NCBI GenBank assembly: GCA_026014735.1 | Contig: JAOZHT010000004.1 | Span: 1-64,000 of the forward strand | Length of the DNA: 64,000 nucleotides | Source of the DNA: Candidatus Bathyarchaeota archaeon | GTDB taxonomy: Archaea; Thermoproteota; Bathyarchaeia; Bathyarchaeales; Bathycorpusculaceae | Direction of reading: 5' to 3' | Shown here: piece by piece, positions 1 to 5,248 of the stretch | Layout: the number at the start of each line of letters is the position of its first letter | Position numbering within the stretch: the stretch's first letter is position 1 | Notes under the pieces: model-generated | The model's input: only the letters and a program-made list of their open reading frames with translations | Database searches by the model: none | What the model was told of the DNA's origin: nothing | Program-made: the position numbers and the translations under genes

Positions 1-2552
1 AGACAAGATTGAACCCCAGACAGCGAAGTACTACCTGAACCGCTAGAAGAAATTGACAAATTATAGTAAACTGGATCCCAGGTGTAATGCGCAACCAAAT
101 TCCCATCAGAAGTCAGCGGAATATTCCCCTGAGCATAATTCTGACCATTAAATGAAAAATAACTGAAAGCATAGTTATGCAACGACTCAACGCTGACAGA
201 GTAGGTTTTACCGATTAACCTCTGATTTCCACAATAATGCGTTTCACCGCCCACGGTGAACTGAGGATATAAAACATCATTTTCATGACCAGACGTATCG
301 CAGAAAGCAGAAAAATTCACACGGGGCTGATAGAGTTTTATATCGGCATTTCCATAAACGGCCATACGGCTATTTTCTCCAGTTGTTGAATTATGCCATT
401 CGCCATCTCTATAAGTCGGCCATAAAGATGTGAAGCCATTCCACAGTGAGGATTCATCAAAATCCGTGTCTCCACTGAACGCGTCATGTGTGGCTAGGTC
501 TAATGCGTTGTGTATTGTATTGTCTTCCGCCAAAGCATGGTAGAAAAAGCGACTCACCCAATACCAATATTGATAACCGCAGTTTTCAACTGTCTCATTT
601 AAGGCAGCAGAACCCATTGGGAAGCCAATGTAGCAGTCAGGCCCATTATCTTTTGTGTATGCATGATAACCATCGCTGCTCATTTCATTAGCCGAAGGGT
701 TACTTACTACTGCCTTGTGCATCCAAGCGAACGGCATACCCTGTGCATGAGTACCGTTTACAAATCCTCCTTCGCCCATCACTGGATACTCAATTCCATG
801 GTATGTATCAACCCACTGGTCGATTCTTGCTGACAAGCAGGTATTTATGAAGGCGAAGAATGTGTTGTCGGTTGTATGATTATAAATTTCTTGATCATAT
901 ACCCCATACTCAGGGTGGTCTGCGGGCTCGGGATGAAAAGTTGTTGTTGTAAAAGTTCCTCGCTGGTCTTCTATCATATAATGGAATTCACCGTTTACTA
1001 TGTTGCCGACTCCGTGGTCAAAGTCAACTACTGCCATCTGAGGATAGTTGGAAGCAAGATAGGTTATTTTGCTCAGAATTGCATCTTTATTTGAGCCTGA
1101 ATTCTGTACTCCTTGATTATCTATTTCTGGACCGGGGAAATTGTAGCTGTTGTTTGTAAACAGACTTGCGATGTATAAGGCAAGGCATTGTTGGGCACCA
1201 ACTTCATCATTTGATTTGCGCCAGCTTTCGCCTGTATTGGGCGGATTTCTTGAGGCTGAGCTTTCAGAACCCCAAACACTTGCACCACCTGTAGCACCCA
1301 TGACTGGCTCCGAGATTACAGTAACCAGAAGAGGGGAAAGTACTAAGAGACAAAGCAATAACCTACTAATTTTAAAACGTCTTAACTTAGTCAGTCCTTT
1401 AAAAGAAAATGGTTTTTTCTCAAGGAGAACATAGGCTGATACTGACGAAAGAAAAACTCCTGTAAATACAGTGAGCGCTATTAGAGGTAATGCCAATATG
1501 AAGGCACCTTCACTTGTTAAGGCCTCGGGTTGCTCTGTTGATGCGTTTTCATTGCCTGCAAAAGGAAGTAGTCCAGTCGGTGGCTCCATTGTTGAAATTC
1601 TTTGATGAATATAGCAGACTTCCTTTGTGTCTGCCCAGACATAAACGTTAAAGCCATAAACGTAACCAGGGTAAAATTTATCCAGGCACACCCAAACGTG
1701 ATACATTGGATAAAGCTCAAGAGCGTCTTGACCGCGTGCTTTGTCAGCATCTACATATATGGACGGAGCAAAGAGTTTCTCCACTATCATGCCGTTGGTT
1801 ACATTAAATTTTATCCCGCCGATGGTTCCTGGTTGCGAACTATCGGGCGAGTAAAGCTTAACTTTAGAAATCGCAATTTCTATTGCTTCTGATTCAGAGA
1901 GAGTTATTTTTGTGTTGCTTATAGGGTATAGGTTCCAGTTGTCAATGAAATATTTGAGGAAGCCATTCTCATAACGCAGGGCAACGCATTTGTTCGGCGC
2001 TTCTATGCCGTTGCACACGTATGTCCATCTAAAGGTCATACCTTCTGATACAGATGTTATGTTTAGCTTGATATTTTGGGAAATTTTTGATGTATTTGTA
2101 TTTATATCCTCTTTTACTATCATACTGCTTAATTCTTGGTAGAAAGAGTTACCAGTTTGGACTTGGTAATTGCTGAGAAAGTCCCGTGCCATCGTGATAG
2201 TATCGGCGCCATGCAATTTTGCTGAGGGCGAACCCTCGTTAGTTGAAACATAAATCATTTGCAATGAGCCTTTTACGAAAGTACAGCGTGTATCCAGATT
2301 GCTGCTTGGGCTACTCAAAATTGTATAGACAGTATCTTGAGGAAGATTCCCCTGATACAAGTCACTAGAATATAGTGATGTTGAGATATTATAGTGTGAT
2401 AAGTCAACGCCCAGAACATTTTCTAAAGTTAGAATTGTCTTTTGTTGACTTGTAGGCTCTGCTGCTTTAACACTTGGAATAGATGTAACTACAATCGAGG
2501 AAAGGATTGAAAGAACAATTATCGACATTATAAGTCGGGTTTTTTTCGTCAT
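1..2552 (-). CDS. Large secreted/membrane surface protein, C-terminus cut by window edge; PepSY-like N-domain and putative caspase-fold C-domain
   Basis: An uninterrupted minus-strand frame runs from ATG at 2552 to the left edge (over 850 residues, C-terminus missing). Residues 1-33 look like a signal peptide (basic MTKKTR start, hydrophobic core, SVKA cleavage-like end). An extracellular domain follows (about 35-330); its FRWTY...NG and late SESEAIEIA motifs recall PepSY-like archaeal surface proteins. Two hydrophobic segments near residues 350-400 should leave both flanking domains outside. The C-terminal part has a strand ending VVDFDHG (His about 513) and a later FINTC (Cys about 572), the layout of clan CD (caspase/gingipain-type) peptidases. 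The surface location is inferred from the signal peptide and membrane segments; peptidase activity is only a hypothesis. It is divergent from the Kelch gene. Confidence 0.8.
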   Translation of the reverse strand, partial: MTKKTRLIMSIIVLSILSSIVVTSIPSVKAAEPTSQQKTILTLENVLGVDLSHYNISTSLYSSDLYQGNLPQDTVYTILSSPSSNLDTRCTFVKGSLQMIYVSTNEGSPSAKLHGADTITMARDFLSNYQVQTGNSFYQELSSMIVKEDINTNTSKISQNIKLNITSVSEGMTFRWTYVCNGIEAPNKCVALRYENGFLKYFIDNWNLYPISNTKITLSESEAIEIAISKVKLYSPDSSQPGTIGGIKFNVTNGMIVEKLFAPSIYVDADKARGQDALELYPMYHVWVCLDKFYPGYVYGFNVYVWADTKEVCYIHQRISTMEPPTGLLPFAGNENASTEQPEALTSEGAFILALPLIALTVFTGVFLSSVSAYVLLEKKPFSFKGLTKLRRFKISRLLLCLLVLSPLLVTVISEPVMGATGGASVWGSESSASRNPPNTGESWRKSNDEVGAQQCLALYIASLFTNNSYNFPGPEIDNQGVQNSGSNKDAILSKITYLASNYPQMAVVDFDHGVGNIVNGEFHYMIEDQRGTFTTTTFHPEPADHPEYGVYDQEIYNHTTDNTFFAFINTCLSARIDQWVDTYHGIEYPVMGEGGFVNGTHAQGMPFAWMHKAVVSNPSANEMSSDGYHAYTKDNGPDCYIGFPMGSAALNETVENCGYQYWYWVSRFFYHALAEDNTIHNALDLATHDAFSGDTDFDESSLWNGFTSLWPTYRDGEWHNSTTGENSRMAVYGNADIKLYQPRVNFSAFCDTSGHENDVLYPQFTVGGETHYCGNQRLIGKTYSVSVESLHNYAFSYFSFNGQNYAQGNIPLTSDGNLVAHYTWDPVYYNLSISSSGSGSTSLSGVQSC

Positions 2553-2725: not shown

Positions 2726-2758
2726 TCTGCAAACTGAGATTAGAAGATTGGTGAGTTG

Positions 2759-3883
2759 ATGAGAAGAATAGGCGTTCTTTTGCTTGCCATAGTTCTTATA
2801 GTTCCTTGCACGATGATTTTCAACCCTGTAACTGCGGCTACATCGGATGACTCATGGGAAACTAAAGCGCAGATGCCTATTGCTTCCTCCGGTTTAGGCG
2901 CAGCAGTTTGCAATGAAAAGATATACGCTATCGGCGGTTACGATGAAAAATGGAAATTAACTGGGACAAATCAGATGTATAACCCATCAAGCGACAGCTG
3001 GACTATTCAGGCATCGATGCCTACCCCGCGGTCGTTTTTCGGAATAGCAGTTTGCCAAAATAAGATTTATGTTATTGGAGGCGCCAACAAATCCGGACTT
3101 GTTCCCTTTTCAAATATCCTTGAAGTCACTGGAGTGACCAACATAAATGAAGTCTACGACCCCGCAACTAATACTTGGCAGACTATGTCGCCTATGCCTA
3201 CACCTCGAAGCAATATACAGACAAATGTCGTGGAAAATAAAATCTACGTTACGGGGGGATTTACTTTTCCCAATTTTGAACTTATCAATTCTATGGAGGT
3301 TTATGATCCCCTGACGGACTCTTGGTCAAATATGTCACCGATGCCAATCCATCAGAGCAAGTTTTCTTCAGTCGTTTACAACGATAAAATATACTGCATA
3401 AACGATAATATCACCCAAATATTTGATCCTAAAACAGACACCTGGACCTCCGCAAGCCCACCACCCGACTCGGTTTATCAGAGTGCGGCAGGCGCCACAA
3501 CGGAAACGACGATCACACGGTTATATTTCTTCAGTGGAGGGACTAATTTTGATTTAACCCAAATCTATGATCCAGCCCGCAACATTTGGACTCAAGGTGT
3601 CTCTATGCTTTCACCGCGAATCGACGCGGCAGTTGCAGTATTTAATGATACCTTTTTCTTGATGGGGGGAACGGAACCGAATTATGCCAAAATTCTTGCG
3701 GTCAACGAAAAATACCTCCCTGCCGATTATGGAGGCTCCGATGACCAAGAAACCTTGACGGAATCAGCATCCTCCGACCAAACGCAAACCTTCCACACAA
3801 CATTACTTGCAGCCACAGCTGTAGCAATCGCACTCGTGACTATTGGGCTGGCTGCATATTTTAGGAAAAACAAGCACACTTAG
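2759..3883 (+). CDS. Kelch-repeat surface protein with signal peptide and C-terminal membrane anchor
   Basis: Residues 1-27 are a signal peptide. About six Kelch blades follow, each with the pattern ...KIYxIGG...xxYDPxxxxWxxxxxMPxPR, which should close into a beta-propeller. The C-terminus has a Ser/Thr/Gln-rich linker, one hydrophobic helix (about 348-368) and a short basic tail (FRKNKHT), so the propeller faces outside and is membrane anchored. The ATG at 2759 is chosen over the in-frame TTG three bases earlier because GGTGA lies directly upstream. Kelch propellers bind proteins or sugars; the ligand cannot be told. Its divergent neighbour is another surface protein, so the two may share a role at the cell envelope. 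Confidence 0.85.
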   Translation: MRRIGVLLLAIVLIVPCTMIFNPVTAATSDDSWETKAQMPIASSGLGAAVCNEKIYAIGGYDEKWKLTGTNQMYNPSSDSWTIQASMPTPRSFFGIAVCQNKIYVIGGANKSGLVPFSNILEVTGVTNINEVYDPATNTWQTMSPMPTPRSNIQTNVVENKIYVTGGFTFPNFELINSMEVYDPLTDSWSNMSPMPIHQSKFSSVVYNDKIYCINDNITQIFDPKTDTWTSASPPPDSVYQSAAGATTETTITRLYFFSGGTNFDLTQIYDPARNIWTQGVSMLSPRIDAAVAVFNDTFFLMGGTEPNYAKILAVNEKYLPADYGGSDDQETLTESASSDQTQTFHTTLLAATAVAIALVTIGLAAYFRKNKHT

Positions 3884-4251: not shown

Positions 4252-4385
4252 TTCGCTAAAGTGATAGTAGCCTAAGAAGGGGCAGACTGGCGGGTCGGAG
4301 ATGGAAGGCGCAAGTGACTCCGGATGGAGCCAGTTAAGCCGAATTCATCCCTCTTGCCCAGTTCCTAGGCAACTATCTTAGCGAA
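4252..4385 (+). ncRNA. Candidate structured RNA or small palindromic element
   Basis: The ends can form a long helix. TTCGCTAA (4252-4259) pairs with TTAGCGAA (4378-4385), GATAGT with ACTATC, and GCCTA with TAGGC: 19 pairs with one 3-base bulge and one mismatch. Inside, ACTGGC pairs with GCCAGT, CGGAG with CTCCG, and GGGCA with TGCCC. A TATA-like run (TTAAATATATAG, about 4229-4240) lies upstream, which favours a transcribed RNA on the plus strand. I could not match it to tRNA, 5S, RNase P or SRP RNA. A MITE-like element is the alternative. Confidence 0.4.
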
Positions 4386-4579
4386 AGTTTAGTTCATTAC
4401 ACTATAAATACTTACCGTTAAATTTTAACAACCCAGACAGCGATTGTTTATTTTCAATATGTTTTCACAATACACTTTAGCATTTCCCACTAATAAGAAG
4501 GCAAACCACAGAAACACAGCGCCCAAAGCACCAAAAAACAGCCGCAGAAGCGCACGGCCAAACAGACTAAAAGAAATTT

Positions 4580-5248
4580 ATGTCCCAACAAACAAATCTA
4601 ACACACAGCAGAGGATGGAAAAGAATGGCGGAGAAACCAATCACGGAACGCAGCAAAGAAACCCTCGCATGGATCCAAAAACAGCAGAAAACAAACGGGC
4701 TAGGCATGGTTGAAACCGAAAAGGTCCCCGACCAAGCCGCCGTGCGTTATCTGCTCCGCAAAGGCGACGTGTTTGAGCCGCAGGAAGGCATGATAAAATC
4801 CATGGCGGAACCCGAATCCGAGGAGGCAGGCGAATTCCCCGACCATGCACCATGGGTCTGGAGAACCCCTAAGCCCAAACGCAAAGGCGACATACCCGAA
4901 CCGTACGAGTATTTGGCTTACCCCGACTGGACGGTGCTGCCCTCTGCGGTGGCGGAGGCACTGCGGGGCATGGGCTTCTCCGGCGCACCCTTCCTCTACG
5001 AGGGCTACAGCTACCGCAAAATGATGGGCGGCGCGCTACGACGCAAGATGGTGGGCACCCACTCTAAAGAGGAACTGCTTGCGGAGCTGAGTCTTCGGGG
5101 CAAGTCAGATGCGGAGGTGGCTGCGCTTAAGCAGAAAATCGAGGATGCCGCTGAGGAATGCAGGGGCAACAAGACGGTCACCGAGGTGGAGGTTGCCGAG
5201 GGCATTGTGTATTACCCCAAAGACGGCAGCGTTGGGTTTGCTGAATAG
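4580..5248 (+). CDS. Hypothetical protein with a possible winged-helix segment
   Basis: The 222-residue protein is not recognised as a whole. Residues about 51-75 (LLRKGDVFEPQEGMIK) resemble the last strand pair of small winged-helix domains, such as the one at the C-terminus of archaeal MCM (inference from the pattern only). A proline-rich middle and a charged helical C-terminal part (about 155-200) follow. Codon use is GC-rich like the chromosomal core genes, so it looks like a real gene. Start alternatives are the ATG codons at 4580 and 4625. It may be a DNA-associated protein, but there is no direct evidence. Confidence 0.65.
   Translation: MSQQTNLTHSRGWKRMAEKPITERSKETLAWIQKQQKTNGLGMVETEKVPDQAAVRYLLRKGDVFEPQEGMIKSMAEPESEEAGEFPDHAPWVWRTPKPKRKGDIPEPYEYLAYPDWTVLPSAVAEALRGMGFSGAPFLYEGYSYRKMMGGALRRKMVGTHSKEELLAELSLRGKSDAEVAALKQKIEDAAEECRGNKTVTEVEVAEGIVYYPKDGSVGFAE

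Follow-up and report, generated by a model that had tools for sequence, protein, structure and literature searches.

What does an archaeal surface protein do that joins a PepSY-like domain to a putative caspase- or gingipain-like domain? This question is raised by a gene at the edge of a stretch of 64,000 nucleotides (the window), which is the start of contig C4 of an archaeal genome of 2.9 Mb. Comparison of sequences points to a probable answer: a secreted clan CD cysteine peptidase and a membrane-tethered, propeptide-like partner, acting as an inhibitor or a foldase, would together form a two-part precursor.

The fused gene and its truncation

The gene is encoded on the minus strand and diverges from a Kelch-repeat neighbour. 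The features of the locus are as follows.

3..2552, minus strand: fused surface protein, 850 aa from the ATG; 3' end lost at the contig end
2463..2552, minus strand: N-terminal signal peptide, aa 1-30, with its site between PSVKA and AEP (from sequence)
1587..2480, minus strand: N-domain, aa 25-322, PepSY/FTP propeptide-like, predicted extracellular (from profile and Foldseek comparisons)
1422..1508, minus strand: transmembrane helix 1, aa 349-377 (from sequence)
1362..1421, minus strand: basic loop, aa 378-397, predicted cytoplasmic; positive charge in 47/47 fused homologues
1311..1361, minus strand: hydrophobic helix 2, aa 398-414, internal signal-peptide-like (from an AxA-type site after the helix)
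318..1283, minus strand: predicted clan CD (caspase/gingipain-like) peptidase domain, aa 424-745 (from conservation and profiles)
1014..1016, minus strand: His513, putative catalytic His (from conservation)
837..839, minus strand: Cys572, putative catalytic Cys (from conservation)
3..317, minus strand: start of the C-terminal region, aa 746-850, cut off (homologous to the paralogue G000:C1:1135618-1138176)
2756..3883, plus strand: Kelch-repeat surface protein with a C-terminal TM, divergent neighbour (from a Kelch match)

By translation, VVDFDHG occupies aa 508-514 and FFAFINTC aa 565-572, with a spacing of exactly 59 residues between His513 and Cys572. The positions of about 513 and about 572 given by hand translation in a preliminary description of this DNA were exact, and each of the two residues follows a hydrophobic segment, as claimed there. 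Two hydrophobic helices (aa 349-377 and 398-414) and an N-terminal domain indeed stand ahead of the His/Cys domain. The same genome has two fused paralogues; one of them runs into the end of contig C1 and is interrupted there at the codon at which the window gene also breaks off. Moreover, about 53 identical bases are common to the contig ends G000:C4:1 (window 1-55) and G000:C1:1138178. Therefore, the window gene was most likely truncated when the assembly broke at a repeat within the sequence for the C-terminal region, and the true ends of both genes are missing.

The N-domain and its pairing with the peptidase domain

Later searches for homologues used the peptidase domain alone as query, and hence pairing with the N-domain was not built in by the search. 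Among 99 non-redundant homologues, the peptidase domain follows an N-domain in one chain in 47. In 45 others, a separate peptidase gene is located directly upstream of the N-domain gene on the same strand, with gaps of -91 to +29 nt and one of 174, and in three it is located directly downstream. No partner is seen at four loci. In three of them, L081, L149 and L180, at least one end of the stretch is no more than 250 bases away; in the fourth, L082, the stretch continues for 638 bases past the ORF. The peptidase domain is thus never alone where this can be judged, and the N-domain is its obligate partner, fused or adjacent. This obligate pairing is new here: no description of the peptidase family or of the pairing was found in the literature searched, which mostly left out subscription journals. 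In about half of the loci the N-domain is a separate neighbouring gene, which refines the earlier picture of a fused protein only. Outside the class or family, an N-domain-like neighbour gene was recognised by profile in L248 and L251, and by layout and eye only in L245-L247. On the tree, two-gene forms are basal and fused forms fall mainly in one clade, with at least five changes between the two. This suggests that there was likely one main fusion event.

The fused proteins retain what looks like a trace of the two-gene arrangement. In a positional test, an AxA-type site was found after helix 2 in 46 of the 47 fused homologues and after helix 1 in 16. A laxer test for signal-peptidase sites, which helix 1 passed as well in 32/47, was dropped in favour of the positional one. 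Between the two helices, fused proteins have a loop with a net charge of at least +4, and the peptidase domain begins a few residues past the AxA-type site. Helix 2 is thus most likely a cleavable internal signal peptide, the former signal peptide of the peptidase gene, and the peptidase may consequently be released. The preliminary description placed the domain behind two membrane helices; both are present, and the second is refined here to a likely signal peptide. In the window protein the AxA-type site (V-M-G before A, or M-G-A before T) is poorer than in relatives, so the window enzyme might stay tethered.

The PepSY-like character of the N-domain is seen in its relatives, weakly, and the window's own domain has no Pfam match to PepSY. 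Among 45 N-domain members, Pfam matched PepSY in four (best E 5e-4) and DUF4901 in three. Of 41 genomes, a single one had a PF03413 score above the cut-off of 24 (24.5 bits with neighbours), and this match fell within the gene of an N-domain partner; hmmscan of the same partner protein gave 20.7 bits, below the cut-off. The best PDB profile match of the N-domain is 3nqy, the propeptide of the metalloprotease MCP-02 (E 0.12), and 3nqy also ranks fourth (E 0.017) when a model of the N-domain of low confidence (pLDDT 48) is compared by Foldseek. Since these separate tests agree, each of them weak, the N-domain weakly but repeatedly appears PepSY/M4-propeptide-like at the family level. In M4 peptidases, the propeptide acts in cis for a zinc metalloprotease, from which it is removed by cleavage. 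The N-domain resembles the FTP-PepSY propeptides of this family (thermolysin/vibriolysin) weakly in profile and Foldseek comparisons, but unlike them it is predicted to be membrane-tethered and is paired with a putative cysteine peptidase. We know of no described case in which an M4-type propeptide module serves a cysteine peptidase. A double-PepSY protein of DPANN archaea, cls.004634, may be comparable to the N-domain; the paper that describes it names no target protease (PMC6393860).

The N-domain is also found in another setting. Proteins with an ArsR-like winged HTH (wHTH), a membrane helix and an N-domain were found in the window genome and its relatives (L216:4506-5810, L217:4217-5542, and also L033, L034, L035, L038 and L040). 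From their architecture, they would be one-component membrane regulators with the N-domain outside the cell. This raises the alternative of a surface signalling pair, in which the peptidase cleaves PepSY-like sensors, including these membrane-bound regulators, or is sensed by them. We consider it unlikely, because the stretches fetched around the regulators contain no peptidase gene of the family, and the N-domains that are fused to or paired with a peptidase carry no wHTH.

A third gene recurs at these loci. A Kelch gene is located in the fetched flanks, many of which are short, of at least 29 of the 99 non-redundant loci, window included, and in none of 37 control loci and none of 12 loci with an N-domain only. 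Kelch_1 repeats have 18 matches in the whole window genome. The Kelch protein of the window (2756-3883) ends in a C-terminal hydrophobic helix.

Conservation of the peptidase domain and its probable relationship to clan CD

In 35 close homologues, His513, Gly514, His524, Asp529, Asp553, Ser574 and others are invariant (His513 35/35), and Cys572 is kept in 34/35. The full set of 99 non-redundant homologues retains Cys572 in all but one, which makes it the most conserved of 238 well-filled alignment columns; His513 is kept in 89 and Asp553 in 88. Loss of the His or the Cys among homologues had been named beforehand as evidence against a peptidase of this type; both are retained, with few exceptions. 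Distant homologues have motifs such as FYTGHGF...VIWACFQGN and FFVGHGY...FLHSCYQGH, with the general form FYxGHG...LWxCxQG, which gives them the canonical look of clan CD (GHG and xCxxG).

The His is replaced in ten of the 99 homologues. Nine of these (L152, L157, L160, L172, L174, L175, L183, L184 and L194) form a side branch in which VGD or VGN replaces GH, that is, the His is changed to Asp (Asn in one), while neither the Cys nor the partner gene has been lost. The tenth, L149, has GP. These homologues are possibly pseudo-enzymes or have altered chemistry. A further copy, L083 of the fused clade, is decayed: the Cys is lost, and N-domain and peptidase are in separate frames. It could be argued that the whole family has the clan CD fold but is inactive and serves the surface layer for binding or as a structural module, and the His-less side branch, which is coherent and goes back to one change on the tree, fits such a role. 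This is nevertheless improbable for the family, in which the Cys is the most conserved residue and the His is so widely kept.

Whole-genome searches, with the domain and then with the profile, revealed the peptidase domain in 50 of 257 genomes of the class; it is rare in other classes of the phylum. In L142:575-3220, L046 and L076 the domain is attached to further surface modules, DUF2341 in the case of L142, or is part of a chain that can reach about 2100 residues. Scans of viral contigs matched a single contig. A contig classed as viral, L091 (IMG/VR contig 3300050582_000205), carries a Kelch gene together with a fused peptidase gene. An adjoining gene (4340-5068) looks capsid-maturation-like by eye. 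This suggests a provirus edge or viral carriage. The spread of the family is patchy, with several divergent copies per genome (up to nine matches). Such a distribution, together with an anchored partner encoded immediately after the enzyme gene, would suit a secreted peptidase toxin with a tethered immunity protein that archaea employ against one another. However, nearly half of the family are single fused chains, no toxin-delivery domains were recognised, and a Kelch partner is atypical for such systems, so we regard this explanation as quite unlikely.

To which peptidases is the domain related? Searches of the window protein against Pfam, NCBIfam and PDB sequences gave no match for the peptidase domain. 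PF01364 (Peptidase_C25), PF03415 (Peptidase_C11) and PF00656 (Peptidase_C14) had no Pfam score in the window protein or in 49 members, and CHAT had no Pfam score for the domain either. The domain is thus outside C25, C11 and C14 by their Pfam models, and membership in the gingipain family (C25), for which there was no Pfam score, was not adopted. Profile-profile comparison gave a different result. With hhalign, the domain profile aligned with a profile of C14, CHAT and C25, built from loci of the same class, with a probability of 69%, E 4.4e-5 and a score of 40.4. Against C14+CHAT the score was 36.1, compared with at most 14.9 for shuffled controls on the C14+CHAT profile; with a slightly smaller domain profile, the reversed C14+CHAT profile scored 12.8 and the unrelated N-domain 11.4. 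In the printed alignments (C14, C14+CHAT and C25), His lies on His and Cys on Cys. C14 is the closest single family (E 1e-3). C25 alone was not significant (E 0.019), although its alignment covers 155 columns and matches His to His and Cys to Cys, and neither was C11 alone (probability 0.25%). Significance came with the profile of 99-101 sequences and C14/CHAT; small profiles gave none against C25 or C11 alone. The profile search suggested in the preliminary description thus bore out the relationship to C14, CHAT and C25 combined, but not a match to C25 or C11 alone or to any Pfam model. An AlphaFold model of the peptidase domain from a four-sequence alignment had a pLDDT of 41, and Foldseek found no match with this low-confidence model.

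Because the His and Cys are conserved, distant homologues have GHG and xCxxG, and the profiles align, the peptidase domain is very probably kin to clan CD, which supports the original caspase/gingipain-like idea. That the domain is instead unrelated to clan CD, with convergent motifs on a different fold, as the lack of a curated profile match and of a confident model would allow, is very unlikely, given that shuffled and reversed controls score far lower in the profile-profile comparison and that the catalytic residues align. As in the window family, C14 (orthocaspases/metacaspases) and CHAT, which gave the best profile-profile match, have a hydrophobic strand leading to (G)HG and then a strand leading to Cys and small residues. 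Unlike them, the window family is predicted to be secreted and surface-bound, and has the 59-residue spacing with a conserved H/ED insert. A separate CHAT/C25-like protein of the window genome, L133 (G000:C2:836882-837346), has no signal peptide by eye and is probably cytoplasmic.

A proposed surface proteolytic system and its significance

From these comparisons we infer that the domain is proteolytically active, that signal peptidase cleaves the chain and that the N-domain inhibits the peptidase or acts as its foldase. In the proposed two-part precursor, the FTP/PepSY-related N-domain would be exported by Sec and held by one membrane helix. The peptidase would carry its own signal peptide inside the chain, where signal peptidase would cut, and the mature enzyme would be freed outside the cell. 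The tethered N-domain would bind the peptidase like a propeptide, to fold it and/or to hold back its activity at the surface until the enzyme is required. About half of the relatives would produce the same two parts from adjacent genes, the peptidase and then its anchored partner. Export, folding with the tethered N-domain or retention by it, and release or activation at the surface are expected because of the known behaviour of clan CD peptidases (PMC4357240) and of PepSY/FTP propeptides. A wider reading, which we put forward tentatively and with less than even confidence, is a lineage-specific surface proteolytic system of three parts: a new clan CD family, an obligate tethered PepSY/FTP-like propeptide, acting in trans or as part of a polyprotein cut by signal peptidase, and a Kelch propeller partner.

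Known systems resemble this arrangement in part. Gingipains (C25) are secreted cysteine peptidases with a large inhibitory N-terminal prodomain (PMC4357240). Like them, the window family in its fused form combines a predicted secreted cysteine peptidase with an N-terminal partner domain; the alignment with C25 alone is not significant. C25 also occurs in the same archaeal class as the window family. To our knowledge, the prodomain of gingipains is not PepSY-like and has no membrane anchor. In the lipase system, the gene for the enzyme is followed by that for the foldase. Secreted lipases have a dedicated membrane-anchored steric chaperone, the lipase-specific foldase (lipA-lif/lipH) (PMC13381987, PMC7046727). 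The likeness of this pair to the peptidase and N-domain is by analogy only, and the peptidase and its partner are often encoded as a single polyprotein.

If the three-part reading is true, this would be the first case known to us of an M4-type propeptide with a cysteine peptidase. If the enzyme is active, PepSY-type propeptides would be linked to cysteine peptidases, and the family would offer a clear genetic pair for inhibition by a propeptide in trans. Surveys of Bathyarchaeota, which relied on MEROPS searches, found no extracellular peptidases and asked how protein digestion starts (PMC9534799, PMC10477458). Bathyarchaeota belong to the phylum of the window genome, Thermoproteota, and perhaps also to its class, which is probably Bathyarchaeia. 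The family described here has no match in the curated libraries that we searched. If active, it would provide several candidate secreted proteases per genome, and the question of extracellular digestion would become testable. The family may thus explain protein digestion outside the cell by archaea that were thought to lack secreted proteases.
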